In this document: positions 3,373 to 46,431 of the stretch, piece by piece | Layout: the number at the start of each line of letters is the position of its first letter | Position numbering within the stretch: position 1 is the first letter of the stretch | Assembly: GCA_030950085.1 (NCBI GenBank) | Contig: JAUZRW010000015.1 | Location: forward strand, 1-46,431 | DNA from: Anaerolineae bacterium | GTDB taxonomy: Bacteria; Chloroflexota; Anaerolineae; Aggregatilineales; Phototrophicaceae | DNA length: 46,431 nt | Reading direction: 5' to 3' | Notes under the pieces: model-generated | Seen by the model: the letters and a program-made list of their open reading frames with translations, nothing else | Told to the model about the DNA's origin: nothing | Databases searched by the model: none | Program-made: the position numbers and the translations under genes

Positions 3373-3415
3373 ACTATAATTTGTAGGTGGTTTTCGACAA
3401 CCGACATCAATACAA

Positions 3416-3441: not shown

Positions 3442-3538
3442 TGTCATCTATAAGTTTTTAGAATACGCCCGTTGTAGTTCACCTTCTTCAATTTTCTTTG
3501 TAATTAGATTCCCCACATATAGTTTTTGGAAAACGCTT

Positions 3539-4531: not shown

Positions 4532-4533
4532 TT

Positions 4534-5598: not shown

Positions 5599-5634
5599 AT
5601 AACACATTGCATTTTGAGTTCAAAATTGTCATAA

Positions 5635-5658
5635 GGGCGTAATGCCTTACGCCCCTAC
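5635..5658. repeat. Single GGGCGTAA-type palindrome
   Basis: GGGCGTAA (5635-5642) and TTACGCCC (5647-5654) form a perfect 8-bp stem around four bases, followed by CTAC. It sits 37 bases after the second permease gene. Very similar palindromes with CCCTAC flanks are scattered between genes in cyanobacteria and Chloroflexota. It is a candidate end-of-transcript hairpin but lacks a T-run. Confidence 0.55.
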
Positions 5659-5686
5659 ACAACAAACTACTAAGGGAATACCTTAA

Positions 5687-7312
5687 ATGAGTTTATTAAA
5701 AACAGGATTTGTCGGGTTTTTGACTCTGCTACTGACTGTCATTGTATCAGCACAAGAAACGATGACAGTCGAAATTATACCACTCGCTGAATCAGAGGCT
5801 TGTAGTGGCAGTTTTGTCACGCATGAACTTGACCACATTACAACTATTCCGAGTGGCGATACTGTACAAATGTTTGAGGCAAATGGCTCTGGTGTAGCAG
5901 TCAATGATTTGAATAACGATGGCTTACTCGATATTGTCTTGGGCAATCATGCTGGGCAAAATACGATTCTCTGGAATGAAGGCAACCTCAATTTTCGGAC
6001 TTCGCAGCTTCCGATTGGCGATACCCGTGCTGTCACCTTGATTGATTACAATCTCGATGGTTGGATTGATATTTTCATCACGCGCACTGCCAGCGCCCCT
6101 AATCTATGGCTGAATCAAGGTGATGAGACATTTCAGCAAGCGATAATCAATAGCCTCAGCGAACCACTTTACGCCATTACTTGGGGTGATATAGATGCTG
6201 ATGGCGATTTGGATTTGGTCGGCGCGACATATGATGCTGCATTGCTCAATGACTTTGGACAAGAATTTTTATTGGATGGACGCGGCGGTGTCTATGTCTA
6301 TGAAAACGATAACGGCTTACAGACGGGGCAACAATTAATTAATGAAGCGCAAGCATTAGCTCTTGTTCTCGTCGATATTAACCGCGATGGGCGCTTAGAT
6401 ATTCTGGTCGGCAATGATTTTGCTGTGCCGGATTATGCTTGGTACAACTTGCCTACAGGATGGCAACCAGCCGCTTTCAAGACAACGACTCATAGTACCA
6501 TGAGTTTTGACTTTGCCGATGTGAATAATGATGGTTCACGCGAGATTTTTGCCACCGACATGATGCCCTACTCCGATGACCCCCAAACGATGTTCGCGTG
6601 GCAACCCATTATGGAGAGCATGATGGATGAAGACCATGCCGCAGATGACCCACAAATTATGGAGAACGTGCTGCAAATTGCGGATTCTGTTGGATACTAC
6701 AATGATGCCCTGAATCGCGGAATCAATGCCACAGGCTGGAGTTGGTCTGGTAAATTTGGCGACTTGAACCAAGATGGTTTCCTCGATTTGTACGTGGTCA
6801 ACGGCATGATTGAGCGCACGATTTTTGCCCATTTGCCTAATCATGAATTGGTTGAAGAGAATCAAGTATTGGCGAATAATGGACTTGGCGAATTTGTCGC
6901 TATGCCGCAATGGTTACTCAATTCAGAAGCTAGTGGACGGGGTATGGCACTGGCAGATTTTGATATGGATGGTGATTTAGATATTGTAGTCAACAATTTG
7001 CGTGGTGCGGCACAGCTATTTGAGAATCAACTCTGTGAAGGGCGCAGTTTACAAGTTGAACTGAATAAGCCAAATAGCAATAATCCACAAGCAATCGGAG
7101 CAACACTCGCATTAGAAAGCAGTATCGGAACACTTTATCGTGATGTACGGTCAACAAGTGGTTATTTATCAGGCGATAGCGCACGAGTGCATTTCGGTTT
7201 TCCAGCAAATACAGAACTTTACTCACTCACGATTACATGGTCTGATGGTAGCGTATCGACAGTTGATGACTTGCGCCCACAAAATTTGTACCGTATCACC
7301 CTTGAGAATTGA
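5687..7312 (+). CDS. Exported FG-GAP/VCBS repeat protein with C-terminal ASPIC/UnbV domain
   Basis: Secreted protein of 541 residues with a signal peptide (hydrophobic GFVGFLTLLLTVIVSAQE, cleavage near residue 22). The body holds integrin-like FG-GAP repeats, each with a calcium-binding loop: DLNNDGLLDIVLGN (74-87), DYNLDGWIDIF (120-130), DIDADGDLDLVGA (168-180), DINRDGRLDILVGN (230-243), DVNNDGSREIF (278-288), DLNQDGFLDLYVVNG (359-373) and DFDMDGDLDIVVNN (424-437). The last 90 residues (GATLALESSIGTLYRDVRST ... LTITWSDGSVSTVDDLRP) match the ASPIC/UnbV domain, as in CRTAC1-like proteins. This predicts a seven-bladed propeller outside the cell. It follows the sugar permeases on the same strand after 88 bases; whether it belongs to the operon is unclear. 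Its role may be carbohydrate or surface binding. Confidence 0.85.
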   Translation: MSLLKTGFVGFLTLLLTVIVSAQETMTVEIIPLAESEACSGSFVTHELDHITTIPSGDTVQMFEANGSGVAVNDLNNDGLLDIVLGNHAGQNTILWNEGNLNFRTSQLPIGDTRAVTLIDYNLDGWIDIFITRTASAPNLWLNQGDETFQQAIINSLSEPLYAITWGDIDADGDLDLVGATYDAALLNDFGQEFLLDGRGGVYVYENDNGLQTGQQLINEAQALALVLVDINRDGRLDILVGNDFAVPDYAWYNLPTGWQPAAFKTTTHSTMSFDFADVNNDGSREIFATDMMPYSDDPQTMFAWQPIMESMMDEDHAADDPQIMENVLQIADSVGYYNDALNRGINATGWSWSGKFGDLNQDGFLDLYVVNGMIERTIFAHLPNHELVEENQVLANNGLGEFVAMPQWLLNSEASGRGMALADFDMDGDLDIVVNNLRGAAQLFENQLCEGRSLQVELNKPNSNNPQAIGATLALESSIGTLYRDVRSTSGYLSGDSARVHFGFPANTELYSLTITWSDGSVSTVDDLRPQNLYRITLEN

Positions 7313-20399: not shown

Positions 20400-20921
20400 A
20401 TGGGCATTGGCGATATTATGGCATTGGTCAGCTTCATCTTCGGAATGATAATCGCGTATCCGGCGCTGCTAATTTTCCTGAATCTTCTAATTTCTGGTAG
20501 AACAAGCAAAGCTGCACACCGTCTCAATCGTGGGATGAAGTTACCCTTCTTTGTGGGACTCATCATCGCCACATTGGGCGGGTTTGCTGTTGTCGCCTTA
20601 CTTTCTGTCGGGAGTGTCTTGCAATTCTTCGGCGTGGTTCTGTATCTCATACTCTCATTTTGGGGGACAATTGGAATCGCAGGATTAGCACGAGTTTTTG
20701 GAGACCGACTCGCAGAACTGAGCGATAAAAACCCCTCGCCACTGTATAAGATGCTATCCGGTGGTGCTATTTTGTCACTGGCATTCGCTTTTCCATTAAT
20801 TGGTTGGTTCGTTTTACTTCCGATAGGCACAATCATTGGACTCGGTGCAGCAACGCTCAGTCTCGTGACTCGCATCCCCAAAAATACACCTGACGAAACA
20901 GTAAACATAACAATCTCATGA
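20400..20921 (+). CDS. Four-helix membrane protein of unknown function
   Basis: Hydrophobic protein of 173 residues with a ribosome site (AAAGGA) before the ATG. Helices lie at about 6-32, 48-70, 74-98 and 118-152. A cytoplasmic-type loop of charged residues (GDRLAELSDKNPSPLYKM) precedes the last hydrophobic block. The pattern of LPFFVGLIIATLGG, FWGTIGIAGLARVFG and AFPLIGWFVLLPIG resembles the C-terminal membrane part of some polymer-forming (bactofilin-like) proteins of Chloroflexota, but no bactofilin domain is present. It overlaps the DUF1800 gene by four bases (ATGA), so the two are translationally coupled and may act together. Confidence 0.75.
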   Translation: MGIGDIMALVSFIFGMIIAYPALLIFLNLLISGRTSKAAHRLNRGMKLPFFVGLIIATLGGFAVVALLSVGSVLQFFGVVLYLILSFWGTIGIAGLARVFGDRLAELSDKNPSPLYKMLSGGAILSLAFAFPLIGWFVLLPIGTIIGLGAATLSLVTRIPKNTPDETVNITIS

Positions 20922-22378
20922 CACATTCACGACGAAATTTCTTGAAGCTGATGGCATTAGGAGCAGTTGCGGCAGGATGCAGTCCCATCATTGATAACCA
21001 ATTGCAACCCCCCATGCCGGATGCGACCAATCTCATAGCAGCACAAACAGCGACACCGATTGTACATTTGCTGAATCGAACGACCTTCGGGGCAACATCG
21101 ACACTCGTACAAGACGTTGAAACAGTCGGCATGGAAACATGGCTAGAACAACAATTTGACTATCCAGCGATTGATGATTGGCAAATGAACCTGCGCTTGC
21201 GTCGCTTAGATACACTGACTATGACAGCAGCCGATTTACTGTCATTCACACGGACACCCGATAAACGTTATGTGGCAAACGAATTGGCAGCAGCGATGCT
21301 CATCAAGGCAATTTACTCCAAACGCCAATTTTACGAGGTGCTAGTCAATTTCTGGAGTGACCATTTCAACATCTATCACTTCAAAAAAACGACCTATACG
21401 CTAAAAACAGTCGATGACCGTGAAGTCATTCGTCCGCACGCACTCGGCAATTTTGGCGATATGTTACGCGCTTCAGCACATAGTCCGGCAATGCTCGTTT
21501 ATCTCGATAACATTGCTAACGAAAAGAGCCATCCCAACGAAAACTATGCCCGTGAAATCATGGAATTGCATACATTAGGAGTCGATGGGGGCTACACAGA
21601 AAATGATGTACAGGAAGTTGCACGCTGTTTTACGGGTTGGTCAGTGAGTAACAGAGGTGCGTTTGAATATCGCCCAGAATGGCATGATGACGGCGAAAAA
21701 CAGGTTCTCGGTCATACGATTGCTGCCGGAGGTGGCAAATCTGATGGAGACCGCGTACTCGAAATTTTGATAAACCACCCGAATACCGCCCGTTATCTAG
21801 TAACGAAATTGGTGCGCCGATTTGTTGCCGATGACCCTCCGACACCATTAGTCAATGACCTCACCGGTACATGGCGTGAATCTAATGGCGATATTCCAAC
21901 TGTGATGCGCCGCTTGTTGCAGCACGATTTATTCTGGACTGCACCGCCTAAGTTCAAACGCCCCTTAGAGATGGTGATTTCGCTGCTGCGTGCGACAAAT
22001 GCTACCTATAATGGTAAAACCGCCCTCGTTCAACGCTTACAAACGATGGGGCAACGTCCGTTCGGCTTTGCGACACCCGATGGCTACCCCGATAGAGCCG
22101 ATGAATGGCGCGGTAGTCTTGTTCCGCGTTGGAATTTTGCGCTAGATGCTGTCCATGGCGGTCAAGGAGGAGTCTCTATTCCGATAGGGGATTGGCAACA
22201 ATTCGCAGGAGACGATGCTATCAACCGACTCGGACAGGCTATTTTATTGCGCGATTTGACTCCGCAAGAAAATCAAGCCATTTTGTCCGTTGTCGGTGAA
22301 AAAGACCGCTACAACCAAAGCGATATCCGTACTTTGCTGGCAATGCTGCTCAGTAGTCCAGCCTTTCAATGGCGATAA
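20918..22378 (+). CDS. DUF1800 family Tat-exported lipoprotein
   Basis: Protein of 486 residues. The N terminus is a twin-arginine signal (SRRNFLKLM) followed by a lipobox (AVAAGC, Cys21), so it is exported folded and may be lipid-anchored. The mature protein is DUF1800: HLLNRTTFGATSTLVQDVET near residue 50, LVNFWSDHFNIYHFK, and HPNENYAREIMELHTLGVDG followed by YTENDVQEVARCFTGW, then FGFATPDGYPDRADEW. The family is widespread and almost always next to a DUF1501 gene, as here (the next gene starts 13 bases on). The molecular function is unknown; the two proteins probably form a complex outside the membrane. Confidence 0.93.
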   Translation: MTHSRRNFLKLMALGAVAAGCSPIIDNQLQPPMPDATNLIAAQTATPIVHLLNRTTFGATSTLVQDVETVGMETWLEQQFDYPAIDDWQMNLRLRRLDTLTMTAADLLSFTRTPDKRYVANELAAAMLIKAIYSKRQFYEVLVNFWSDHFNIYHFKKTTYTLKTVDDREVIRPHALGNFGDMLRASAHSPAMLVYLDNIANEKSHPNENYAREIMELHTLGVDGGYTENDVQEVARCFTGWSVSNRGAFEYRPEWHDDGEKQVLGHTIAAGGGKSDGDRVLEILINHPNTARYLVTKLVRRFVADDPPTPLVNDLTGTWRESNGDIPTVMRRLLQHDLFWTAPPKFKRPLEMVISLLRATNATYNGKTALVQRLQTMGQRPFGFATPDGYPDRADEWRGSLVPRWNFALDAVHGGQGGVSIPIGDWQQFAGDDAINRLGQAILLRDLTPQENQAILSVVGEKDRYNQSDIRTLLAMLLSSPAFQWR

Positions 22379-22391
22379 GGAGACATAATTG

Positions 22392-23642
22392 ATGACAACT
22401 TCACGACGCTCATTTTTGAAATCTGCCGGAATTGTAGGAGCAGGTTTATTCTTGCAAGACCTCTATCCAAGTTGGATGCCACGCCTTGCCTTCGCACAAA
22501 ACGGCGCTTCCGGCGATGTCATTGTCTGTGTGTTTTTGCGCGGCGGAGCTGATGCCTTGAATATCGTTGTACCATTTGGCGATGACGATTATTATCGCGC
22601 CCGTCCAACATTGTCACTCGCACCGCCAGATAGCAGTAACAATAGTGCGGTACTCGAACTCACGGACTTTTTCGGACTCAATCCGGATATGGCAGCAATG
22701 CACGAACTCCTGACATCCGGTCAGATGACAGCGATTCATGCTGTGGGTGCGCCCCATGTTTCACGCAGCCACTTTGAAGCAATGGATTTAATCGAACGCG
22801 GAACAGATGGCTCTCAGGGCGCAAACACCGGCTGGCTAGGACGTTACTTGTCACAGACTGCCAGCGACACAGATACCCCCTTGCGTGCTATTGGTTGGAG
22901 CGATAGCCTGCAAACCAGTCTACTTGGCTATATTCCGGCAACCGCCCTACGCTCGATTACCGATTATCATTTAGCGAGTGAAAATGCCGAATCTTTTCAA
23001 GCCTCTATGTCACAGATGTATCAATCCGATGATGCTCTCACGCAAGCAGCACAATCAACAATCGACACACTCAATCTGGTGCAACAAATCGACGTGGATA
23101 ATTATATTGCAGCAAATAACGCACAGTATTATGAAACGAATCTCGGACGGGCATTGAAGCAAACGGCGGCACTCATTAAAGCCGATGCTGGTTTAGAAGT
23201 CGCTTGTATTGATATGGGCGGCTTTGATACCCACATTGCACAAGGGAATATCGTCGGGACGGGCATTGGCGAGTTTCCATTTTTGGTGAAAGAACTCGCC
23301 GACAATCTACGCGCCTTCCACGATGATTTACTGAATCACATCCATAAAGTCACAGTCGTCGTCATGTCGGAATTTGGGCGACGGGTACAAGAAAATGGGG
23401 CTACCGGAACAGACCATGGGCATGGCGGCGTAATGTTTGTCATGAGTTCTGATTTACAACCTGTAACCGTGCATGGTCAGTGGCCCGGTATCAATTCGCG
23501 CTTCCTTGATAATGGCGATTTGGCGATTACCAACGATTATCGTGATGTTTTGAGCGAAATTATGCTACAACGGACAACAATTGGCTCTGTGAACAATGTC
23601 TTCCCGAATTATCGCAGCACGCCTATTGGATTATACCGCTAA
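22392..23642 (+). CDS. DUF1501 family Tat-exported protein
   Basis: Protein of 416 residues from the ATG at 22392; a TTG three bases upstream is in frame, but AAGGAG lies nine bases before the ATG. A Tat signal is present (SRRSFLKSAG, hydrophobic stretch, AFAQNG cleavage region near 37). DUF1501 motifs: VIVCVFLRGGADALNIVVPF, APHVSRSHFEAMD, IDMGGFDTHIAQ, VVVMSEFGRRVQ and GTDHGHGGVMFVM. The domain belongs to the alkaline-phosphatase/sulfatase-like superfamily by fold, with His/Asp metal-site residues. It is the usual partner of DUF1800. No substrate is known. Confidence 0.93.
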   Translation: MTTSRRSFLKSAGIVGAGLFLQDLYPSWMPRLAFAQNGASGDVIVCVFLRGGADALNIVVPFGDDDYYRARPTLSLAPPDSSNNSAVLELTDFFGLNPDMAAMHELLTSGQMTAIHAVGAPHVSRSHFEAMDLIERGTDGSQGANTGWLGRYLSQTASDTDTPLRAIGWSDSLQTSLLGYIPATALRSITDYHLASENAESFQASMSQMYQSDDALTQAAQSTIDTLNLVQQIDVDNYIAANNAQYYETNLGRALKQTAALIKADAGLEVACIDMGGFDTHIAQGNIVGTGIGEFPFLVKELADNLRAFHDDLLNHIHKVTVVVMSEFGRRVQENGATGTDHGHGGVMFVMSSDLQPVTVHGQWPGINSRFLDNGDLAITNDYRDVLSEIMLQRTTIGSVNNVFPNYRSTPIGLYR

Positions 23643-33890: not shown

Positions 33891-36800
33891 ATGAAGAACA
33901 GGAACAGGCAACGTTTCCCATGGGCAATTATCGCTTCGCTGGTGCTTTTTGCGATACTTTTTACTATTATCCCTGTCAGCAATGCACAAGGAGAACCTTT
34001 ATCGCTCGACAAAACAATTATAGGCAATCCGACCACGGTTGATACCGGCGAAATTATAGAATATCGCCTCGTCTATAGTTGCAATAGCTTGAGCACAAAC
34101 TGCGGTATTCTAACAGTACAAGATGTTTTGCCGTCTGATGTGACTTGGCTAGAAACACAAGTTGCTTCTGGTTTTACGGCAAGTTTTGATGCTGGAACGA
34201 ATACGGTAACTATTGTTAGTGATAGTATCTTCAGCGATGGCGACCAATCAGAAGCGATTATTCGAGCGCGAGTCAATTATGATGTCCCCGGCGGTACTAA
34301 TATCTCGAATTCCGCCACAGGCGATAGAGATAATTCTGTAGCCAACCCGGATGCCACAGCGCCTCCTGTAACTGTTACTGTCAATCAGCCGACCTTTCAG
34401 TGGGAAGTTCGTAAAACGCAGGTTAGCCCTTCGATTGACCCGGCGCTTGATAATGATGTCACCTATCGTCTGGAAGTTTGCTCGCAGAGTGCTGTTGGTA
34501 ATGTCAGCCTGTCCGGTGTGGAACTTGTCGATGATTTGCCGCCGAATGTGACAATTATAAGTGCTGGTGGCGGCACAGTGACTGGTCTTCCTGCTACGGG
34601 TCAAACGATTACATGGACACTCGGCGACCTTGATATAGCGGTTGTAGGTACGGGTTGTGTCTCACGGACAGTCGTTATTCAGTATCCGAGTGCCTTCTAT
34701 AATGTAGGTGATACGCCGCTTAATACAGCAAGCGCAACGGGAATGTATGATGATGGCACAGGCACTTGTGATACGACATTGTGTCCAATCGGCACAGACG
34801 CAAATGTGAACACCCCAATTATTGTTGACCAACCCGACCCCGATGGCAGCAAATCAAATTCCGGTACTATTGTCGGTATCGGTGGTGTCGGGCGTTTCTT
34901 CGTTAATGTCGATACAAATAGTGCCAATGTGCCTGTCAACAACCTGATTATTAACGATACGATTGACCCACAATTAGAAATTACACAAATCAATGCTAGT
35001 GGTTGGAGTCTGCCGGCAACGCTGGAATACTCGACTGACGGTGTGACTTACATATCGCTTGGCATCTTCCAAGATGGAGTTGCGCTGAGTAGTCCCGGTG
35101 ATTTCCCGACCAATGTGGCGAATTTGCGCTGGTCATTTACAGGTAGTGTCCCATTTGGATTCAGTGGGCAAGCAGAAGTTGTCTTCACGCCGCGCAATAG
35201 TGGCAGCCCCCTCGCCGTTAGTGGCAATAGTTATCAGAATTGCATTGCTATTAGTGCTGATGCTCCGGCAACCCCCGTTAATGATTGTTCATCGGTTACG
35301 ATTGATGACAATAGCGTTGTCATTTCTCCCGTAAAAACGACTGTCGGTGCCAATACCGTTCGTCCGAGCGATGTCTTGACCTTTAATCTACGCTTGCGTG
35401 TGGATGAACGCTCCTCAGTCGCTTTATTGAACCCTACTGTGATTGAAGCATTGCCGGATAGCCTCGAATATATTACTGATACGAATGACCCCGATTATTC
35501 AGTCCCCGTGATTAGCTTTACTAACGTCGTGGGTGGAGAACAAGTACAACCCACGCTGACAATCCAAAACAACGTTACGATTGATGGAACATTGTACGCG
35601 ACTGTCCTTGTCTGGACTTGGCCACCGGGCTATTTCTTGACTCCGCCAGCATTCGGCGTGAGCGATATTAATATCCAATTTTCGGCGCGAGTACGCCCGG
35701 GGACATTGCCCGCCACTTATCCTAATTTGGCTTATTTTGTGTCGGATTCTCCTGATATGGTTTGTGACACAGGAACTCCACAAACAGATACAGAAGACCT
35801 TGACGGCGATTCAAATACGGCAGAAGACCGTTGCCGCGTCACGGTTAATTATGATGTTCAAGAAACAGTTGTCCTGTCATCGCAAAAATGGATTAGCAAC
35901 CCGTCTTATCAACTCGATTCGACATTTACTGGTTTCTTAGACACAGTGGCTTCTAACCCACCTGCCCCTAGCGCATCTTGCCCTAGCAGCACTTTCGGAG
36001 CATTTGCCCAACCCTTTACACGTTTCCCTTGTGTCACTCAGGGTTTTCCGGATAATACAAATTTTGTCCCACCGAACCCCGATACATTTGATGATTTCTA
36101 CTACTGGTTAACGATTAGTAATGAGGGTAATGTTGAGGGTAGTAATTATATTCTCTACGATATTTTGCCGTATGTCGGAGACACCGGTTCGGGTGGGCCC
36201 CTTTTCACATCAGCGCGTGAGTCAGAGTTCACTCCTTATATCATTGGTCCCGTCACGATTGAAAGTTTACCGGCTGGTCTCAATGCCTCTGATATCACGA
36301 TTGAGTATTCCAATAGTAGCAATCCTTGTCGTACAGAAGTCTTTAACGATAATGTTATCAATAATGAACCGGCTGGTTGTGTCAATGATTGGACAACAAC
36401 TCCCCCACCGACGACATCACCGAATACAGTACGGGCATTCCGTATTCGCTTCAATAATACGGCGGCACGTTTTCCAGTCTTGAGTACGATGCAATTCAGC
36501 GTGCCAATGCGTATTTCTGAAGATGCACAATCGGGACAAATTGCTTGGAATTCTTTTGCTCAACGTGCGAGTAATCCAACAACGGGGCGCATTCCGACCT
36601 CTGAGCCACGCAAAGTTGGTATCATTGTGCCAGAACGCATGAGTGTCGGAAATTATGTCTGGTATGATTATAATAATGATGGTACGCCAGTAGATGATAG
36701 CGGCGCTGCTGAAGCCCCGGTTGTCGGGGCAACTATCAGCCTTTATCGGGATGCCGATAACAATGGTACGCCTGATAGCCCGATACCTGTTGCAACCGAT

Positions 36801-39800
36801 ACGACGGATACCAATGGCTACTATCTCTTTAGCGATATTGTCTATGATGGGAGTGACCCAACACAAAATCGTTATGTGATTGCAGTCGATGAGACCAATT
36901 TCAATTTTGGTAATCCGATATTTGCCCATCTGAGTAGTACCGGAACAAATAGTGATAATCAGACGGATTTAGATGATAATGGTATAGATGACCTCAACCC
37001 AGCCGCATCAGCTTTCGGCATACTGGGTCCTAGTTTTGAACTAAGTATCAATACTGAGCCAACAGGCGAAACGCAACTCAGTGGCGACGACCCCAATAAT
37101 TTCCCGACAGGTAATTATCCGGATGGTCCCTTCTCGCGTGGTGTGCGTGCAGAACCCGATAATAATAGTGATTTAACGATTGACTTCGGCTTTTATGTGC
37201 CGATGTCGATTGGTAATCGCGTTTGGTTTGATACAGGTGCGGGTGTATTAACCAACAATGGTTTAGAAGACCCTTCGGAAAGTGCGAATGGTGTTGCGGC
37301 TGTAGCACTGACACTTTATCGAGACGACGGCAACGGAACATTCGGTGCTGGCGATACGGTTTATGCAACGACGACCACAGATGCCAATGGCTACTATCTA
37401 TTCGATAACTTGCCACCCGGCGATTATTTTGTGGCAGTTGACCAAAGCAACTTTGACCCCGGCGGCGTGCTGCGTGCCCATGAAGATAGCGATAATAGTC
37501 CGAATGTTGATGTAGATCGTGAAAATAAGGGGGCGAATGATACCTTCCTCGGTAGTTCCGGTGTCGTCAGCACTTTGGTTACATTAGCACCTTTCACCGA
37601 ACCTGTTCTCGGAGTTGGTCCGAATGATGAAGTTGACCAGACTACCCCAACAGGCTTTACATCGCCACATGGCAACACAGGCGAACTTGATGACAATAGT
37701 AATTTAACGATTGACTTTGGCTTCTGGTCACCCGGTATGGCTTTGGGCAATTTCGTCTGGGAAGATGCCGATAATGACAACGTTTTTGATGTTGGTGAAA
37801 CCGGACTCAACAACATTACTATCAACCTTTATCAAGATATGGACGAAGATGGTGTCCCTGATGGGATAGTCTTTGCAACGACAGTCACAACACTTGGCGG
37901 CTTTTATCTCTTTGATAATTTAGCACCCGGTGGCTATATCGTCGAAATTCCGGCATCAGAATTTAATGCTGGTGGTGATTTAGTCGGTTATATCAGCAGT
38001 AATCGTAATGATACGATTGATACGCTTGTACCGCCTCTGACTTCACCAACAGGCGATTTCGCTACTGATTGGGATGACCAGCAAGATGATGGTCTGAACC
38101 AAAGCGATGCTGCGGGCTATCTCGCTTTTGGTATCCGCAGCGAAACGGTGACACTCGTACCTGTTAGTGAGCCATTTGATGTTGATGGCTCAGAACCTGA
38201 TGGTGGTCTGGGTATTGGTGCTGGCGGCAAAGATGAGAATAGTGACCTGACAGTCGATTTTGGTGTATTCCAACCCCTTAGTATTGGTAATCGCGTTTGG
38301 CGAGATGATTACAGTAGTGGTGATGGTGTCACTATCAAAGGTGATGGCATCTTTGATATGATTAATGAGAGTCCTGTCGATGGTATCACCCTCACGTTGT
38401 TCAAGTTGAATGACGGCGGTAATCCTAACAATATTGCAGACTATAGCATTGTCCAATTCAATGGCGTGAATCAGGTTGATAGCACCGATGATGGTGGCTA
38501 TTATCTATTCGATGGTCTTGGCGAAGGAACGTATCGGGTTCGTGTTGATGCGGCAAACTTCGCGGCGAATGCAATATTAGAGAACCATCGTAGTAGCGAT
38601 GGTCTCAATGGCGCGGATAGTACAGATAGTGGTATTGATGATATTGCGGCAGCGACGAATGGAATCTACAGCGAACCTGTTGTCTTGGCGCTCGGCACAG
38701 AAGATACCACAGAAACTGATGCCAACGATGCAGGTCAGGCGACTAATCGCAATGATGGTTCACTTGGTTTTGGTATCTATGAAGAACAAGATGACAATAG
38801 TGATTTAACCGTTGATTTCGGCTTTTATATTCCGCCGATGAGTCTCGGTAATCGTGTTTGGTACGATACCAATAACAATGGTTTGATTGATGCTGGCGAT
38901 GATAATCCGGCGGCACCGGGTAATCCGGGCATTGCAGGGGTTACGGTTAATCTCTATAACGCAAGCGATACGAGTACCCCCATTGCAACAGATACGACAG
39001 ATGCGAACGGTTATTATCTCTTTGATGACCTCGTGGCTGGTGATTATGTGGTCGGTATTCCGGTGAGTAATTTCGCAGCGAGTCAGGCTCTTGAGAATCT
39101 GACAAGTAGCACGGGCAATGGCGGTGATAATCAACAAGATACCGATGTTGATGAGAACGGTATTGATGACCTGACTGTACCTCTACCTAATGAGATTTTC
39201 AGTACGACAATTACCCTCGCTTTAGACTCAGAGCCGACAGGTGAAGCTGACCTCAGTGGCAATGCGGCGGATGTTGCGCCGGGCTATCGCGGCACAAATG
39301 GCGAAAAAGATAATAATAGTGACCTGACTGTTGATTTTGGCTTCTTTGAACCTCTCAGCATCGGCAATCGGGTGTGGCTAGATGACGGTGCTGGCACGGC
39401 TGGTTTGGGCGGTTTCAATGATGCTGTCCAAAATGGCACAGAGGCTGGAATTGCTAATGTGACGGTTGCCCTCTATCAAGATGATGGTGATGGCATCTTC
39501 AATGGTGCGGATACCCTCGTGACATCTGAAACCACAGATGCGAATGGCTATTATCTATTCGATGGCTTGATTGGTGGCAACTACTTCGTCGTTGTTCCAT
39601 CGACAAACTTCAGTGGAATTCAGCCATTAGTCGGCTTGGTCAGCAGCTTTGGCAACACAGCCGACGAAACAACCGATGTCAATGACAATGGGATTGATGA
39701 TGCTGCACCTGCAACCAATGGCATTGTGAGCAATCTTGTTGTTTTGACGATTGATGGTGAGCAAACAGGCGAAACAGACCTCAGTGGCAATGCGACAAAT

Positions 39801-42800
39801 GATGGTCCCAACTCGATTGGGCGCTTTGGCGAAGATGATAACAATAGTAATATCACGATTGACTTCGGCTTCAATGAACCCCCGATGAGTCTCGGCAATC
39901 GTGTTTGGTACGATACCAATAATTCTGGCACGATTGATGCTGGCGATGATAATCCGGCGGCACCCGGTAATCCGGGTATCGCAGGGGTTACGGTTAACCT
40001 CTATGCCGCGAGCGATACCAGTACCGCTATTGCAACAGATACCACTGATGCAAACGGCTATTATCTGTTTGAGAATGTGCCGCCCGGCGATTATGTAGTC
40101 GGTATTCCTGTGGGTAATTTTGCGGCAGGTCAACCGCTTGAGAGCCTAGCAAGCAGTACAGGCAATGGTGGTGATAATCAACAAGATACCGATGTTGATG
40201 AGAACGGTATTGATGACCTGACTGTGCCTCTTCCAAATGAAGTGTTCAGTACGACAATTACCCTTTCGCCTTCCACAGAGCCGACGGGTGAAGCAGACCT
40301 CAGTAACAATGCGGCGGATGGTGCGCCGGGTTATCGCGGTAATAATGGCGAATTGGATAACAACAGTGACCTGACTGTCGATTTTGGCTTCTTTGAACCT
40401 CTCAGCATCGGCAATCGGGTGTGGCGAGATGACGGTGCTGGCACGGCTGGTTTGGGCGGCTTCAATGATGCTATCCAAAATGGCACAGAGGCTGGAATCG
40501 CCAATGTGACGGTTGCCCTCTATCAGGATGATGGTGATGGCATCTTCAATGGTGCGGATACCCTCGTAACGTTTGAAACCACAGATGCGAATGGCTATTA
40601 CCTCTTCGATGGTATGCCTAGCGGCAACTATTTCGTCGTTATTCCATCGACAAACTTCGGTGCAGGTCAACCATTAGTCGGCTTAGTCAGTAGCTTTGGA
40701 AACACGGCTGATGAAACAACCGATATCAATGACAATGGGATTGATGATGCTGCACCTGCAACCAATGGCATTGTGAGCAATCTTGTTGTTTTGACGATTG
40801 ATGGTGAGCAAACAGGCGAAGCAGACCTCAGTGGCAATGCGGCGCTTGATGGACCCAACTCGATTGGGCGCTTTGGCGAAGATGATAACAGTAGTAATAT
40901 CACGATTGACTTTGGCTTCAATGAACCTCCGATGAGTCTCGGTAATCGTGTTTGGTTGGATGATAACAATTCTGGCACGATTGATGCGGCAGATGGCGCA
41001 ACACCCGGTTTTGCCAATGTCGCTGTCAGTCTGTATTTAGCAAGCGATACGAGTACCGCTATCCTCACTGAAACAACCGATGCGAATGGCTATTATCTGT
41101 TTGAGAACTTCCCACCCGGCGATTATGTAATTGGCGTTGATGCCTCGAATTTCCTAAGCGGTGTCTTGGTGAATTATGGGAGTAGTACCACTGAAAATGC
41201 GAACGGTGTCGGCGGCGATAGTGACGATGAAGGCATTGACAATAACGCCCCTGCGACAAATGGTATCTTCAGCGCAACCATTAACCTGACCCCCGCAGCC
41301 GAACCAACGGGTGAAACTGACCTTAGCAATAATGCGGCGGATGGTGCGCCGAACTATCGTGGTAATAACGGTGAACTTGATAACAATAGTGACCTGACAC
41401 AAGACTTCGGCTTCTTCCGATCTATGAGTATCGGTAATGTTGTTTGGGCGGATAACGGACTCGGTGGCGGAACAGGTAGTAATGGCGTTCAAGATGGTGG
41501 CGAAGTCGGTATCCCCAACGTAGCAGTCACGCTGTACTTAGATGATGGCGATGGGGTTTTTGAACCTACTACGGGTGACACCGTTTTAGCGACTGATGTA
41601 ACCGATGCCAATGGTTTCTATCTTTTTGATGGACTCGTCCCTAATACGTACTTTGTCTGGGTGGACGATACCAACTTCCTAGGCGGCGGTGCTTTAGCCA
41701 ATTTTGATAGTAGCCCGGGTAATACGGGTGATACCGGCACGGACTTAGACGATAATGGTATTGATGAGAACTTCCCGGCAAGCAATGGTGTTGTCAGTGT
41801 GCCGATTACACTGACACGCGACGGTGAAACAACTACCGAGACTGCGTTCAGTAACAATGCACTCGATGGACCCAACTTCATCGGTAACAATAACGAAATC
41901 GACATCAACAGCGATGTATCCGTCGATTTTGGCTTCAATGCAGAACCCTTTAGTATTGGTAATCGTGTCTGGTTTGACCCCAACAATAATGGTCTGATGG
42001 ACGTGGGCGAATTGGGTATCGCGGGTGTGACAGTTAATCTTTATCGTGATAACAATACCAACGGCGTGATTGATGCTGGCGAATTTGTCAGGAGCGATTT
42101 GACAGATAGCGAAGGCTTCTATCTCTTTGATGGTCTCTCGACAGGTTTCTATATTCTCGAATTGTCTGAATTGGACTTCCGCATCGGTGGCGTGCTAGTT
42201 GATTTGTTCAGTAGCACGGGTAATAGTGCCGATAATCAAACGGATATTGATGATAATGGTATTGATGATGCCACACCGGATGTCGGCGGTATTATCAGCC
42301 CGCCGATTGAACTCACGAAAAACCTTGAACCAATAAACGAAACTGACCTCAGTAACGATGCTGGTGATGGTCCGGTTGGAGAACGTCGGGGTAATAATGG
42401 GGAGCTTGATAGCAATAGCGATTTAACGATTGATTTTGGTCTCTATAAACCCATGAGTATTGGTAATCGGGTTTGGTTTGATACTAACGATAGCGGCACA
42501 ATAGATGGTCTGGAAACAGGCGTTAGTGGCGTGATTGTTAACCTGTACCGCGATGCGAATAATAATGGTATTGCTGAACCCGGTGAACAAATCGACATTG
42601 ATTTGACCGATGCAGACGGCTACTACCTCTTTGATAACCTGATTCCCGGTAATTATATTGTGGAAATCCCCGCGAGTAACTTTGCTGGTGGACAGCCTCT
42701 CAATACGCTTAACAGCAGTACAGGCAGTGCCGCAGATGATACCGATAGTAACGACAATGGCATTGACGACCCAGCACCTGCAACCAATGGTATTTTCAGT

Positions 42801-45800
42801 AATGTCATCACATTGGCGGTAGATGGACAACCGACAGGCGAAACAGATGTCAGCAATGATGCCGGTGATGGCGTGAATCGCATCGGGAATAACGGTGAAA
42901 TAGATTCCAATAGTGACATAACGATTGACTTTGGTTTTGTCGGTGCGCTGATGAGTCTTGGCAACCGCGTTTGGCTAGACCCGAACAATAACGGTATCCT
43001 TGATGGTGGTGAACTTGGCATTAGCAATGTAGCCATTACCCTTTATCGTGATACCGATGCTGATGGTCTGCCGAATGGCGCGGCAATTGCAACGACGACA
43101 AGTGATGCCAATGGGTATTACATCTTCGATGGTTTGACACCGGGCGATTATATTGTCGCACTGGATAATGCCAATTTTGCGGCGACTAATCCGTTAGATG
43201 GTTTGTTGAGTAGTACGGGTAATGGAACAGATAATCAGCAAGATAGTGATGTTGATGAAAATGGGATTGATGCCCTTAACGCAACTTATGGCTTGCTGAG
43301 TCCGACGATTAACTTAACACTCAGTAGTGAGACGACTACAGAAGCAGATTTGGGTCCGGATGGTAATGGTAGCAACGGTGAATCCGCCGATAATAGTGAA
43401 CTAACGGTTGATTTCGGTCTCTATGAACCACTGAGTCTCGGTAATCGCGTTTGGTTTGATAGCGATAATAATGGACTTCTTGATGTGACCGAGTCAGGGA
43501 TTGGCGGTGTTGTGGTCAACCTCTATCAAGATGATGGCACCGGCACTTTCGTACAAATTGCGACAACGACCACTGACAGCAATGGCTACTATATCTTCGA
43601 CGGTTTGGGTGAGGGAAATTACTATGTCGAGATTCCCGCGACGAATTTCCAACCGGCTGGGGTATTAATCAACCTCAATAGCAGTACAGGCGCTAATAAC
43701 AATGATGCCGATAATAACGACAATGGTATTGATGACCCCACGCCAGCAACCAATGGCATTATCAGCAATACAACCACATTGACACGCGGCACAGAACCTA
43801 TCAATGACGCTGATTTGGGTCCTGATGGTCATGGTAGCAATGGTGAACAGAATAATAACAGCGACCTAAGCATCGACTTCGGTTTCTTTGGCGGAACAAT
43901 GGCGCTGGGTAATCGTGTCTGGTTTGATGATGGCGCTGGCGGCGGTAATGCACGCGATGGTATACGAGATGCAACAGAATTAGGCGCTGCTGGAGTCAGT
44001 GTCAGCTTATACCAAGATAGTAATGCCGATGGCACTCCGGATGCTGCGGCAATCGCAACAACGACAACAGATGCCAATGGCTACTATATCTTTGATGGCT
44101 TAGCTCCGGGCAATTATATCGTTGGGCTGGATGCCAACAATTTTGTTCCGGCAGGCGTTTTGGCAGGTTATACGAGTACCGTTACCAATCAATCCGCGAC
44201 ACTGGATACGGACAATGATGATTATGGTATCGACAACGATAATCCGCCTATCATTGGTATCTTGAGCAATACTGTTATTTTGCAGTTGGCAACTGAGCCG
44301 ACAGGAGAAGCAGACTTAGGACCTGACGGCAACGGTAGCAATGGCGAAACAGATGATAATAGCAATCTCACGGTTGATTTTGGGGTCTATAAACCGCTTA
44401 GTATCGGTAATCGCGTTTGGTTTGACCCCGATGATAGCGGCACAATAGGCATAACTGAGACAGGCATTGGCGGCGTAACCGTTACCCTCTATCTTGATGC
44501 GAATGGCAATGGTATTCCTGATGGTGGTGAAAATATTGCCACAGATACCACAGATGGCGATGGTTATTACTTATTCGATGACCTCTTCCCCGGTAATTAC
44601 ATTGTCGTGGTAGATAACACGAATTTCCAAGCGGCTGGCGCGTTAGAAGGCTTTTCTAGTAGTACAGGTGATGTTGCTGATGATACAGACAGTAACGATA
44701 ATGGCGTAGACAATCCGACTCCACAGACGAATGGTATTCAGAGTGGCATTATCACTTTGGTAGAAGATAGTACGCCAATAGGTGAAAGTGATATCAGTGG
44801 TGATGTCAATGATGGACCCAATTTCCGTGGTACAAACGGCGAATCAGATAATAATAGTAACCTCACAGTAGACTTCGGTTTTGTTGCTGGCTCAATGAGC
44901 ATCGGAAACCGTGTCTGGCTAGATGATGGCGCTGGTGGTGGTACTGCTAATAATGGTGTTCAAGATGGGACAGAAGCAGGTATCCAAAATGTACTGGTCA
45001 ATCTCTTTGCTGATGTAGATGGCAATGGTGTTCCTGATGGTGTTGCCCTCTTCACAGATACGACAGATGTGAATGGCTATTACTTATTCGATGGTTTGCC
45101 ACCCGGTAATTACCTTGTGCAAGTTGCCCCCAACAATTTCCAGACAGGTGGCGCATTATTGGGCGTGTTTAGCAGTACAGGCGCGAGCAATAGCAATGCC
45201 GATAGTAACGATAATGGTATTGATGACACCAATCCGGCAACAAATGGTATTCTTAGCGATACGATAACGTTAGTTGCCGACAATGCCCCAACAGGTGAAA
45301 CCGACCTTGGACCAGAGGGTAATGGCGCAAATGGCGAAACAGATAATAATGCCGACTTAACGATTGACTTCGGTTTTGCTGTCGCTTACGACTTTGGTGA
45401 TGCCCCTGATACTTACGGGACGACATTAGCCAGCACTGGCGCTCAACATGTCATTATCAGCACACTACGTTTAGGGCAAGTCATAGATGATGAAGCCGAC
45501 GGGCAACCGAGTGTTGGCGCTGATGCTGATGATACGGCGAATAGTGACGATGAAGATGGCGCGACTATCCCGACCTTAGTTGCTGGTACGACAATCGGTA
45601 TTGACGTAACAGTGCTGAATGATACGGGTAGCACTGCGAATGTCGTTCTCTGGATTGATTTCGATGGCAATGGCGTTTTCGATGCTGGCGAAGGCTTTAC
45701 GGCGACTGTCCTCGCAAGTGCGACAGAACAAGTTGTCACGATTAATGTCGTTGTGCCAATTGATGCCGATGTGACAACTGGTGGCAGCACCTATGCCCGT

Positions 45801-46431
45801 ATCCGCCTAACAACAGATAATATCAGTACAAGTGACCCCACAGGTCAGGCGAGTAATGGTGAAGTCGAAGATTATGTCGTCACAATCATTCCGCCGGGTG
45901 TTGTCATTACCAAGTCCGATGGACAAAATTCAATCGTTGTCGGACAAGCGACCACTTATACCATCACAATCGGGAATAGTGGACTTGATGTTGTGAACCG
46001 TAATTTTGTGGATAATATCCCCACGGCTGACCCAGATGGCTTTGACCCAACAAGCATCACATGGACTTGCACAGCTAGTGCTGGCGCGAGTTGTATTTCT
46101 GGGCAACCTGCCGGAACGGGTGATACAGGAACGGGAGCGATTAACACCTTCATCGACATTCCGCGTGATGAACAGCTTGTTTATACGCTGACTGCGACTT
46201 TACGTCCGAACTACAGCCAGCCGTCTGTCACAAATACGGCTACACTAGAGACGGGTGAATCAGCGTCAGACACCAACGGTATCATCTCTGACCCACCAAC
46301 AGGCATCAAAGTCGGTGTTGTTATCGGGGGTACTCGTATTCGTTGGACAATGACATGGCTCAACACGGGTGGAGCACAAGCCGCAACTATCTCTGATACA
46401 CTCCGCCCTGGTCAAACGTTTATTGGCAACC
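33891..46431 (+). CDS. Giant secreted repeat protein (DUF11 / SdrD_B / GEVED), 3' end outside window
   Basis: One frame stays open from the ATG at 33891 (AGGAAA upstream) to the window edge, at least 4180 codons, with no stop. A signal peptide is present (KNRNRQR, then WAIIASLVLFAILFTIIPVSNA, cleavage near 32). Residues about 36-915 are beta-rich DUF11-like repeats (KTIIGNPTTVDTGEIIEYRL, KTQVSPSIDPALDNDVTYRL, KTTVGANTVRPSDVLTFNLR). From 36639 to 45386 come 17 SdrD_B-type units, then a GEVED-like domain (45387-45890, DFGDAPDTYGT ... GEVEDYVVTI) and a last DUF11-like region. The many Asp/Asn-rich loops such as DTDVDENGIDD should bind calcium and stiffen the chain. The likely role is a cell-surface stalk, adhesin or sheath protein. 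Its anchor, if any, is beyond the window. Confidence 0.93.
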   Translation, partial: MKNRNRQRFPWAIIASLVLFAILFTIIPVSNAQGEPLSLDKTIIGNPTTVDTGEIIEYRLVYSCNSLSTNCGILTVQDVLPSDVTWLETQVASGFTASFDAGTNTVTIVSDSIFSDGDQSEAIIRARVNYDVPGGTNISNSATGDRDNSVANPDATAPPVTVTVNQPTFQWEVRKTQVSPSIDPALDNDVTYRLEVCSQSAVGNVSLSGVELVDDLPPNVTIISAGGGTVTGLPATGQTITWTLGDLDIAVVGTGCVSRTVVIQYPSAFYNVGDTPLNTASATGMYDDGTGTCDTTLCPIGTDANVNTPIIVDQPDPDGSKSNSGTIVGIGGVGRFFVNVDTNSANVPVNNLIINDTIDPQLEITQINASGWSLPATLEYSTDGVTYISLGIFQDGVALSSPGDFPTNVANLRWSFTGSVPFGFSGQAEVVFTPRNSGSPLAVSGNSYQNCIAISADAPATPVNDCSSVTIDDNSVVISPVKTTVGANTVRPSDVLTFNLRLRVDERSSVALLNPTVIEALPDSLEYITDTNDPDYSVPVISFTNVVGGEQVQPTLTIQNNVTIDGTLYATVLVWTWPPGYFLTPPAFGVSDINIQFSARVRPGTLPATYPNLAYFVSDSPDMVCDTGTPQTDTEDLDGDSNTAEDRCRVTVNYDVQETVVLSSQKWISNPSYQLDSTFTGFLDTVASNPPAPSASCPSSTFGAFAQPFTRFPCVTQGFPDNTNFVPPNPDTFDDFYYWLTISNEGNVEGSNYILYDILPYVGDTGSGGPLFTSARESEFTPYIIGPVTIESLPAGLNASDITIEYSNSSNPCRTEVFNDNVINNEPAGCVNDWTTTPPPTTSPNTVRAFRIRFNNTAARFPVLSTMQFSVPMRISEDAQSGQIAWNSFAQRASNPTTGRIPTSEPRKVGIIVPERMSVGNYVWYDYNNDGTPVDDSGAAEAPVVGATISLYRDADNNGTPDSPIPVATDTTDTNGYYLFSDIVYDGSDPTQNRYVIAVDETNFNFGNPIFAHLSSTGTNSDNQTDLDDNGIDDLNPAASAFGILGPSFELSINTEPTGETQLSGDDPNNFPTGNYPDGPFSRGVRAEPDNNSDLTIDFGFYVPMSIGNRVWFDTGAGVLTNNGLEDPSESANGVAAVALTLYRDDGNGTFGAGDTVYATTTTDANGYYLFDNLPPGDYFVAVDQSNFDPGGVLRAHEDSDNSPNVDVDRENKGANDTFLGSSGVVSTLVTLAPFTEPVLGVGPNDEVDQTTPTGFTSPHGNTGELDDNSNLTIDFGFWSPGMALGNFVWEDADNDNVFDVGETGLNNITINLYQDMDEDGVPDGIVFATTVTTLGGFYLFDNLAPGGYIVEIPASEFNAGGDLVGYISSNRNDTIDTLVPPLTSPTGDFATDWDDQQDDGLNQSDAAGYLAFGIRSETVTLVPVSEPFDVDGSEPDGGLGIGAGGKDENSDLTVDFGVFQPLSIGNRVWRDDYSSGDGVTIKGDGIFDMINESPVDGITLTLFKLNDGGNPNNIADYSIVQFNGVNQVDSTDDGGYYLFDGLGEGTYRVRVDAANFAANAILENHRSSDGLNGADSTDSGIDDIAAATNGIYSEPVVLALGTEDTTETDANDAGQATNRNDGSLGFGIYEEQDDNSDLTVDFGFYIPPMSLGNRVWYDTNNNGLIDAGDDNPAAPGNPGIAGVTVNLYNASDTSTPIATDTTDANGYYLFDDLVAGDYVVGIPVSNFAASQALENLTSSTGNGGDNQQDTDVDENGIDDLTVPLPNEIFSTTITLALDSEPTGEADLSGNAADVAPGYRGTNGEKDNNSDLTVDFGFFEPLSIGNRVWLDDGAGTAGLGGFNDAVQNGTEAGIANVTVALYQDDGDGIFNGADTLVTSETTDANGYYLFDGLIGGNYFVVVPSTNFSGIQPLVGLVSSFGNTADETTDVNDNGIDDAAPATNGIVSNLVVLTIDGEQTGETDLSGNATNDGPNSIGRFGEDDNNSNITIDFGFNEPPMSLGNRVWYDTNNSGTIDAGDDNPAAPGNPGIAGVTVNLYAASDTSTAIATDTTDANGYYLFENVPPGDYVVGIPVGNFAAGQPLESLASSTGNGGDNQQDTDVDENGIDDLTVPLPNEVFSTTITLSPSTEPTGEADLSNNAADGAPGYRGNNGELDNNSDLTVDFGFFEPLSIGNRVWRDDGAGTAGLGGFNDAIQNGTEAGIANVTVALYQDDGDGIFNGADTLVTFETTDANGYYLFDGMPSGNYFVVIPSTNFGAGQPLVGLVSSFGNTADETTDINDNGIDDAAPATNGIVSNLVVLTIDGEQTGEADLSGNAALDGPNSIGRFGEDDNSSNITIDFGFNEPPMSLGNRVWLDDNNSGTIDAADGATPGFANVAVSLYLASDTSTAILTETTDANGYYLFENFPPGDYVIGVDASNFLSGVLVNYGSSTTENANGVGGDSDDEGIDNNAPATNGIFSATINLTPAAEPTGETDLSNNAADGAPNYRGNNGELDNNSDLTQDFGFFRSMSIGNVVWADNGLGGGTGSNGVQDGGEVGIPNVAVTLYLDDGDGVFEPTTGDTVLATDVTDANGFYLFDGLVPNTYFVWVDDTNFLGGGALANFDSSPGNTGDTGTDLDDNGIDENFPASNGVVSVPITLTRDGETTTETAFSNNALDGPNFIGNNNEIDINSDVSVDFGFNAEPFSIGNRVWFDPNNNGLMDVGELGIAGVTVNLYRDNNTNGVIDAGEFVRSDLTDSEGFYLFDGLSTGFYILELSELDFRIGGVLVDLFSSTGNSADNQTDIDDNGIDDATPDVGGIISPPIELTKNLEPINETDLSNDAGDGPVGERRGNNGELDSNSDLTIDFGLYKPMSIGNRVWFDTNDSGTIDGLETGVSGVIVNLYRDANNNGIAEPGEQIDIDLTDADGYYLFDNLIPGNYIVEIPASNFAGGQPLNTLNSSTGSAADDTDSNDNGIDDPAPATNGIFSNVITLAVDGQPTGETDVSNDAGDGVNRIGNNGEIDSNSDITIDFGFVGALMSLGNRVWLDPNNNGILDGGELGISNVAITLYRDTDADGLPNGAAIATTTSDANGYYIFDGLTPGDYIVALDNANFAATNPLDGLLSSTGNGTDNQQDSDVDENGIDALNATYGLLSPTINLTLSSETTTEADLGPDGNGSNGESADNSELTVDFGLYEPLSLGNRVWFDSDNNGLLDVTESGIGGVVVNLYQDDGTGTFVQIATTTTDSNGYYIFDGLGEGNYYVEIPATNFQPAGVLINLNSSTGANNNDADNNDNGIDDPTPATNGIISNTTTLTRGTEPINDADLGPDGHGSNGEQNNNSDLSIDFGFFGGTMALGNRVWFDDGAGGGNARDGIRDATELGAAGVSVSLYQDSNADGTPDAAAIATTTTDANGYYIFDGLAPGNYIVGLDANNFVPAGVLAGYTSTVTNQSATLDTDNDDYGIDNDNPPIIGILSNTVILQLATEPTGEADLGPDGNGSNGETDDNSNLTVDFGVYKPLSIGNRVWFDPDDSGTIGITETGIGGVTVTLYLDANGNGIPDGGENIATDTTDGDGYYLFDDLFPGNYIVVVDNTNFQAAGALEGFSSSTGDVADDTDSNDNGVDNPTPQTNGIQSGIITLVEDSTPIGESDISGDVNDGPNFRGTNGESDNNSNLTVDFGFVAGSMSIGNRVWLDDGAGGGTANNGVQDGTEAGIQNVLVNLFADVDGNGVPDGVALFTDTTDVNGYYLFDGLPPGNYLVQVAPNNFQTGGALLGVFSSTGASNSNADSNDNGIDDTNPATNGILSDTITLVADNAPTGETDLGPEGNGANGETDNNADLTIDFGFAVAYDFGDAPDTYGTTLASTGAQHVIISTLRLGQVIDDEADGQPSVGADADDTANSDDEDGATIPTLVAGTTIGIDVTVLNDTGSTANVVLWIDFDGNGVFDAGEGFTATVLASATEQVVTINVVVPIDADVTTGGSTYARIRLTTDNISTSDPTGQASNGEVEDYVVTIIPPGVVITKSDGQNSIVVGQATTYTITIGNSGLDVVNRNFVDNIPTADPDGFDPTSITWTCTASAGASCISGQPAGTGDTGTGAINTFIDIPRDEQLVYTLTATLRPNYSQPSVTNTATLETGESASDTNGIISDPPTGIKVGVVIGGTRIRWTMTWLNTGGAQAATISDTLRPGQTFIGN
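36639..45386 (+). repeat. Array of 17 SdrD_B-type coding repeats
   Basis: Units begin with a SxGNRVWxD motif at 36639, 37203, 37737, 38277, 38838, 39354, 39885, 40401, 40932, 41424, 41949, 42453, 42951, 43431, 43899, 44397 and 44895, all in one frame. Lengths are 468-564 bp. Each has NGYYLFDxLxxGxYxVxI midway, a calcium-type DxDxNGIDD loop, an EPTGExDLS motif, and ends in NNSDLTxDFGF. The first half matches SdrD_B; the second is a short linker module. Confidence 0.9.
38838..40931 (+). repeat. 1047-bp tandem duplication of two SdrD_B units
   Basis: Block 1 (38838-39884) and block 2 (39885-40931) have equal length, and each contains a 516-bp and a 531-bp unit. Counting by eye, the 531-bp halves differ at about 40 positions, many of them third codon positions, and some stretches of over 60 bases are identical. 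This is much closer than any other pair of units in the array, so it is a recent duplication or gene conversion. The start of the next unit (40932) still resembles the first unit of the block. Confidence 0.85.
45387..45890 (+). other. GEVED-like domain within the giant gene
   Basis: The part encoding YDFGDAPDTYGT through WIDFDGNGVFDAGEGF to NGEVEDYVVTI matches the GEVED domain, named for the Gly-Glu-Val-Glu-Asp motif near its end, which is visible here. GEVED domains occur in large secreted proteins, often after SdrD_B or DUF11 repeats. A calcium-type loop (DFDGNGVFDAGE) sits in its middle. Confidence 0.8.

Follow-up and report, generated by a model that had tools for sequence, protein, structure and literature searches.

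The window, a stretch of 46,431 nucleotides that makes up the entire contig C57 of an Anaerolineae genome (5.09 Mb in 266 contigs, 97% complete, 0.52% contamination), holds at its right side one very large open reading frame. This frame (33891..46430, forward strand) starts with an ATG, has an AGGA a few bases 5' of it, and runs for 4,180 codons without a stop up to the right edge of the contig, where the assembled sequence stops. An N-terminal signal peptide is evident from the translation, and the following features were assigned:

33891..46431, forward strand: giant surface-protein gene, 5' 4,180 codons, running off the contig end (reading frame)
33891..33989, forward strand: signal peptide, aa 1-33, ...AILFTIIPVSNAQ (read from sequence)
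33990..36641, forward strand: head, aa 34-917, a chain of Ig-like beta-domains with 14 Cys (AF2 model, Foldseek, Cys count, columns over 32 heads)
36642..45389, forward strand: stalk of 17 SdrD_B-type units, aa 918-3833 (Pfam and our own unit profile)
36642, 37206, 37740, 38280, 38841, 39357, 39888, 40404, 40935, forward strand: starts of stalk units 1-9
41427, 41952, 42456, 42954, 43434, 43902, 44400, 44898, forward strand: starts of stalk units 10-17
38841..39887, forward strand: units 5-6, copy 1 of a dimer duplicated in tandem (86-91% aa and 88.5% nt identity to units 7-8)
39888..40934, forward strand: units 7-8, second copy of the dimer duplication (identity to units 5-6)
45642..45884, forward strand: GEVED domain, aa 3918-3998 (PF20009, E 1.4e-14, 55 bits, cut-off 24.4)
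45897..46431, forward strand: first C-terminal DUF11-like domains, aa ~4003-4180, truncated where the contig stops (translation and homologue alignment)
46011..46431, forward strand: overlap of 421 bp with contig C130, 94% identical, where the frame continues for 250 residues to LPETGE-TM-RRSWQYIRKQ-stop

The 27 other window proteins that were scanned comprise, by Pfam, transporters, enzymes and a two-component pair, besides proteins of unknown function or with no match. At 2089-7312, an FG-GAP / UnbV_ASPIC protein comes after the genes of a sugar ABC transporter (one solute-binding protein, two permeases), and at 20918-23642 a DUF1501 protein comes after a DUF1800 protein. No tRNA was found in the window.

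The probability of a stop-free run of this length is about (61/64)^4180, so that chance is no explanation for it. Complete frames of the same architecture were present in 6 other genomes, which counts against a misassembly, and the earlier note's description of an unbroken giant frame through the right edge was thereby borne out. Its second claim, a stalk of 17 SdrD_B units of about 170 residues each, agrees closely with a profile built from the stalk units themselves, which finds 17 units between aa 918 and 3833 at a spacing of 156-188 residues (mean ~171). If the assembly is from short reads, the count of units could be wrong by one dimer, as units 5-6 match units 7-8 at 88.5% identity across 1,047 nt and the longest exact repeat measures 95 bp. 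Tandem Repeats Finder reported nothing, the duplicated block of 1,047 nt exceeding its period limit of 500.

Thirteen Pfam families match the frame at E<=1e-3. Above cut-offs, Pfam gives 16 SdrD_B stretches (PF17210, in tandem, 694.9 bits) and a single GEVED domain. The earlier note had proposed a combination of these two with DUF11-like domains, and the third part stands less firmly within the window: DUF11 is not among the 13 families, and a DUF11-type NCBIfam repeat reaches 21.1 bits on the head, under its cut-off of 24. A clear DUF11 match (57 bits) was found only in the continuation on C130.

The note had left the end of the gene, and with it the mode of anchoring, unseen, and had proposed extending the contig to the stop codon and searching for an anchor signal and a sortase. 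When the last bases of the window were used as a query against the genome, only one other place matched, contig C130 (4,904 bp). Its reverse strand starts at window position 46011, parallels the window through the overlap and then runs on, carrying the frame through 250 further residues that end in LPETGEAPWWRTSVLLGLGLLLGLAGFVATRRSWQYIRKQ-stop. The overlap contains 24 differences, with 18 codons changed silently and 6 replaced, a mostly silent pattern that resembles variation as between strains. Both contig ends lie within stretches that are identical in the two versions (65 and 58 bp), and the break would fit an assembler stopping at strain variation.

C130 very probably carries the 3' end of the window gene, because the head occurs once in the genome, a second giant SdrD_B gene was not seen in it, and C130 is the sole match to the end of the window. 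The total length would then be ~4,430 aa, with LPETG at residue 4391. Seventeen of the 19 SdrD_B matches in the genome fall in the giant frame; the other two, both on C173, are weak, one of them below the cut-off, and belong to far smaller frames. The C130 end aligns with the C-termini of homologues at 40-48%, and a terminator-like site lies 68-82 bases past its stop, where one was found against 0.1 expected. The join is drawn from the overlap rather than from a single read spanning it, and conservation of neighbours could not serve as proof, as the genes beside the homologues are not conserved in the flanks fetched. This lack of synteny, together with an overlap identity of 94% rather than 100%, would be compatible with C130 terminating another gene, or a strain variant that is built differently, and with the window gene ending otherwise. 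We consider this very improbable, however, given that the 97% complete genome shows no second head or SdrD_B giant, that the overlap differences are mostly silent, and that all six complete close homologues have the same type of end.

Provided that C130 is the end of the gene, the tail (LPETGEAPWWRTS..GLGLLLGLAGF..RRSWQYIRKQ, Kyte-Doolittle (KD) hydropathy 1.98) follows the LPxTG-hydrophobic-basic pattern; the tails of five LPxTGE-TM homologues measured had values of 1.76-2.62. The curated LPXTG_anchor model TIGR01167, which spans 34 positions, gave no match in the genome at E<=0.001, and the C130 tail was unlisted at E<=1. LPxTGE-type patterns occurred 9 times in the genome compared with 5 in a reversed control, two of them at such a C-terminus: that on C130 and that of locus L211. 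The latter (contig C204 of the window genome, around 9749) has an LPNTGE-hydrophobic tail and may be a second sortase substrate, with last residues that are acidic, not basic.

Three sortase genes score over the cut-off in the genome, on C107 (349 aa), C255 (216 aa) and C190 (183 aa), none of which reaches a class-level NCBIfam sortase cut-off; nine peptidoglycan transpeptidase matches were found in eight frames. From the C130 tail, the six of six complete homologue tails, the three sortases and the transpeptidases, we infer that the protein is anchored by a sortase. A type IX secretion system (T9SS), PEP-CTERM or the lack of any anchor was rejected in view of the LPxTGE-TM tails, and neither Pfam nor NCBIfam lists a T9SS C-terminal domain or PEP-CTERM family for the C130 tail. 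With its signal peptide, its domains and this LPxTG tail, the protein fits the earlier note's designation as a giant surface protein.

In a sortase tree, one C255-type sortase occurs in each of the seven genomes with LPxTGE-type proteins and forms one clade (support 98/92). C190 types occur in 6/7 of these genomes (90/79), and C107 types in 7/7 as well as in all 4 genomes sampled that carry the motif-sortase cassette treated below. Scored with the cassette profile, C255 reaches 94.3 bits, C190 73.6 and C107 48.9. A Rosetta-stone pairing, in which the fused sortase would point to C255 as the partner enzyme, was rejected: the profile scores favour it, but the tree does not place the two together. 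C255 is our best guess for the enzyme acting on the window protein, and a weak assignment. In genome G014, a standalone C255-type sortase (L039:9215-9865) lies ~6 kb from the giant gene, the sole such linkage in the LPxTGE-type flanks fetched.

The head profile matches 14 of 98 genomes of the same family-level group. A full-length head with a long stalk was found in seven of the 14, including that of the window. The other six are complete: G006 (4,432 aa, 15 units), G010 (4,255 aa, 17 units), G014 (4,197 aa, 13 units), G051 (4,002 aa, 13 units), G053 (3,858 aa, 12 units) and G082 (4,272 aa, 14 units). Each of these ends in LPxTGE, a hydrophobic stretch and basic residues. A paralogue in G082 (L074:5193-8453; 1,086 aa) has the same head and an LPTTGE anchor and no SdrD_B match. 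The remaining seven genomes gave partial or distant matches. The sole complete distant frame, in G050, encodes 5,124 aa with 27 short units; its head matches in part, and its end is free of LPxTG. The LPxTG anchor is therefore not universal in the wider group.

A first contig scan with the single head as a query gave no match. When the head alignment was used to scan named genomes, 115 relatives were obtained, of which 80 were kept, in 78 loci; the frame ends inside the locus in 52 of these and runs off in 26. Among the 52 ended frames, 5 have the LPxTGE-TM tail of the close homologues and 11 a sortase domain, and a sixth LPxTGE is found in Paenibacillus (L157). Related heads were present in seven loci (L095, L097, L100, L102, L104, L119, L157) from records labelled Actinomycetota, Lysobacterales and Paenibacillus; two of these have LPQTGG or LPQTGE tails and the rest other hydrophobic-basic tails, which suggests that a single family of heads has been adapted to differing envelopes.

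The AF2 model of the head (884 residues, 32 sequences) is nearly all beta, with a pLDDT of 85.9 and a pTM of 0.69. Foldseek matched it to Ig-domain chains (PrgB, integrins, antigen I/II) at a low global TM of ~0.2, and no Sdr/Clf head was among the best 50 matches listed. No ligand-binding domain was recognised by Pfam or Foldseek, the fold matches being generic Ig chains. A viral fold search gave TM <= 0.17 by query length among the matches listed, none of which names a function. The head contains three Lys-Asp/Glu-Asn triads, whose conservation was counted over 32 heads from three or more phyla. They are K175-D214-N278 (31, 32 and 30 of 32), K482-E519-N612 (31/32, Asp in 31/32 at position 519 where the window head has Glu, and 32/32) and K666-D757-N887 (31, 31 and 30 of 32). 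The domain between triads 1 and 2 lacks the Lys, which is present at position 323 in 6/32. These triads appear to be of the isopeptide type, and the corresponding bonds are predicted. All seven homologues have 13-15 Cys in the head (14 in the window) and none in the stalk.

The window stalk contains no Cys, 8 Lys and 25 DxDxDG-like loops, and has a net charge of -418. Over the seven homologues, the stalks hold 1-11 Lys in 2,228-2,916 residues, and 12-25 such loops each. Isopeptide bonds along the stalk are unlikely, as there is almost no Lys to form them. With B domains of 4-5 nm in length, the stalk would measure on the order of 70-80 nm. The loops would fit a stiffening by calcium as in the B domains of SdrG and SdrD, which bind calcium and withstand ~2 nN (PMC6232131). 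The stalk would thus be a very long array of a fold known for calcium-dependent strength of this order.

For 43 of the 101 stalk units in the seven proteins, the best match lies within the same protein. Tandem two-unit duplications with 75-91% aa identity were found in the window genome (G000, units 5-6/7-8), in G006 (5-6/7-8) and in G053 (4-5/6-7). The last 3-5 units, on the wall side, are in register across proteins (identity 0.49 at the same offset vs 0.44-0.45; 0/1,000 shuffles). Head-side units are weakly in register (21, 2 and 1 of 1,000 shuffles for 3, 4 and 5 units), and middle units are out of register across genomes, for which reason one-to-one orthology of all units was rejected. 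Because two-unit blocks are duplicated in tandem while the wall-side units stay in register, the stalk appears to grow in its middle by dimers.

We consider it likely that the gene encodes a secreted surface protein of ~4,430 residues, covalently anchored to the wall, in which a stiffened head on a calcium-stiffened stalk attaches the cell to a surface or partner. Export of LPxTG proteins, their retention by a helix, cleavage by sortase and transfer to peptidoglycan are established in Bacillota. In the same manner, the window protein would be exported by Sec and retained by its C-terminal helix, LPETG would be cut between T and G by one of the three sortases (C255 being the best guess), and the cleaved protein would be joined to peptidoglycan. 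Isopeptide bonds and disulfides would stiffen the head, which would be displayed at the end of the stalk, itself stiffened by calcium, and would mediate attachment of the cell to a surface or a partner. Stalk length would change through tandem duplication of two-unit blocks in the middle, with the wall-side units staying in register.

The head could also not be an adhesin, in which case the protein would be a structural spacer or coat that sets the distance of cells or of a sheath. The strongly acidic stalk (net -418) points in this direction, as do the lack of a recognised ligand-binding domain in the head and the small variation in total length (3,858-4,432 aa in 7 genomes, counting the window protein with C130). 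Nevertheless, related heads in other phyla sit on stalks of different make-up, and the short G082 paralogue keeps head and anchor without an SdrD_B stalk, so that we regard the spacer as possible but on balance unlikely. A subunit of a sortase-built, pilus-like polymer, rather than a wall-anchored monomer, seems improbable. The C130 end does give a weak match, at 26.6 bits against a cut-off of 30, to a fimbrial domain that forms isopeptide bonds, and the solved proteins most closely related to the fused sortase domain in the sister clade described below include class C pilin polymerases. However, no pilin or sortase family was found in the 27 other window proteins by Pfam, and among the LPxTGE-type flanks fetched, a sortase lies near the giant gene only in G014.

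In a sister clade, all 11 readable protein ends keep an LPxTG-like motif (LPxTGF in 9, LPNSGF in 1 and FPSTGY in 1), with a sortase domain in place of the membrane tail; a twelfth frame of this fused type, L084, is cut inside the sortase domain. In the 11 tails, the domain begins ~25 residues after the motif and extends to the end of the protein, and the hydropathy maximum is 0.71-1.45 vs 1.76-2.62 for the five LPxTGE-TM tails. The proteins measure 2,765-3,877 aa, and their C-terminal cassette has no membrane helix. A sortase profile, a sortase fold and catalytic-type His, Cys and Arg are all present in the fused domain. Pfam Sortase (PF04203) scores 84.9 bits on that of L092, the model (pLDDT 81.7) matches sortases A, C, D and E (best E 1.1e-10), and His80, Cys144, Arg157 and Arg161 are invariant in the alignment, either Arg being a candidate catalytic residue. 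Around the LPxTGF motif the model has a pLDDT of ~60, too low to bear on whether the motif would dock in its own active site. Candidate mechanisms for these proteins, which lack the helix that would retain them, are cleavage in cis, cleavage by the domain of a neighbour and polymerisation.

In a head tree of 32 rows, 27 of which have a known tail, the 12 fused-type rows form one clade (SH-aLRT 97) that is nested among LPxTGE-TM rows and has G010 (L080) as its sister. The tree takes one switch from LPxTGE-TM to the fused tail, and two changes suffice for the three tail states; three more rows of the fused clade have unread ends, and the deeper order is uncertain owing to long branches.

The tail profile matches 315 of 396 sampled genomes of the class, ordinary standalone sortases included. 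With the threshold set at E<=1e-35, matches are found in 28 of the 400 genomes sampled from the phylum. All 28 belong to the same class, and in two of them (G158 and G315) the motif part is not covered. Fifteen cassette proteins were fetched, one of which was identical to L089; all 14 new ones read [LIV]PxTGF before the sortase, a count biased towards the motif by its presence in the search profile. Together with the sister clade, 25/25 distinct cassette proteins carry [LIVF]Px[TS]G[FY], and in the sortase tree 26/26 cassette rows fall in one clade (100/100). Five cassette proteins scanned with Pfam have different ectodomains: protein kinase, cadherin/Big, MBG/YDG, DUF11 and Ig-like. In the first of these kinds, L203:2552-4942 (G352), a Ser/Thr-type protein kinase (174.5 bits) ends in a C-terminal LPRTGFAPG-sortase (67.7 bits).

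In the order to which the window genome belongs, giant frames (G031, G417, G034, G042 and a cut one in G012) end in other sortase types, with a Pro/Thr-rich or similar linker and no LPxTG directly before the sortase. Such own-order giants, at L188:1854-15224, L189:2173-13935, L190:3318-15194 and L191:2487-12908, encode 3,473-4,456 aa. The tree does not separate a single sortase fusion event from several.

Exactly two sortase matches, one in a frame of ~300-340 aa and one fused, were found in 7 of the 28 genomes (G238, G296, G324, G384, G392, G418 and G451), and G424 has a fused match only. This would fit the fused domain taking over the work of a dedicated sortase; against it, the fused clade is not grouped with C255, and other cassette genomes hold further standalone sortases. 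As a plausible but tentative reading, these would be self-sorting Chloroflexota surface proteins, in which a single-use cassette of LPxTGF and sortase replaced LPxTGE-TM once and serves unrelated ectodomains elsewhere. The fused domain would cut its own motif once and hold the ectodomain as a thioester; the ectodomain would then be passed on, either to the wall or to an adjacent subunit, and the sortase domain discarded. If this is true, each surface protein acts as the enzyme of its own anchoring, for a single use.

The end and the anchoring of a giant Chloroflexota gene that could not otherwise be read have been settled here by inference. The family also offers a natural comparison, with the same head and stalk on a trans-acting tail (LPxTGE-TM) or, in the sister clade, on a built-in sortase. 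As head and stalk are shared between the two forms, action of the sortase in cis on its own polypeptide can be tested with purified fragments. No paper on sortase-anchored giant Chloroflexota surface proteins, or on fused or C-terminal sortase domains or SdrD_B in Chloroflexi, was found by title in a search that covered non-subscription papers. For Chloroflexus, a 2006 paper (PMC1586193) reports a single protein whose N-terminal region resembles a sortase, without evidence that it functions as one, and no mention of sortase was found in the text examined of PMC3482391.

Among known systems, the staphylococcal proteins SdrD and SdrG are built alike, with an N-terminal head, tandem SdrD_B units and a sortase motif, and for two stalk units the closest relative of solved structure is SdrD (10ps, 1.8e-14; 4jdz, 1.9e-7). 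MSCRAMMs of the Sdr/Clf type are defined by an N2-N3 ligand-binding tandem in the head. Unlike the staphylococcal proteins, the window protein has 17 units averaging ~171 aa (against 112 in the Pfam model), no Ser-Asp repeat region in the translations including C130, additional GEVED and DUF11 modules, a head with conserved Cys and no recognisable kinship, and a host in the Chloroflexota. Triad 1 of the head is spaced like Lys715-Asp748-Asn806 of the DUF11/CLIPPER isopeptide domain 9IFR (PMC12617251). In contrast, the spacing of triad 3 is much wider (91 and 130 residues), and triad 2 has Glu where 31/32 heads have Asp, its bond being predicted from sequence. The fused domain of the sister clade shares with sortases (PF04203) the Pfam match, the invariant His, Cys and Arg and the fold, but differs from them in forming the C-terminus of a surface protein of 2,765-3,877 aa, behind an LPxTG-like motif and without a membrane helix. 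The window protein adds a new member to a known kind, and its family includes a new variant, the fused-sortase tail.
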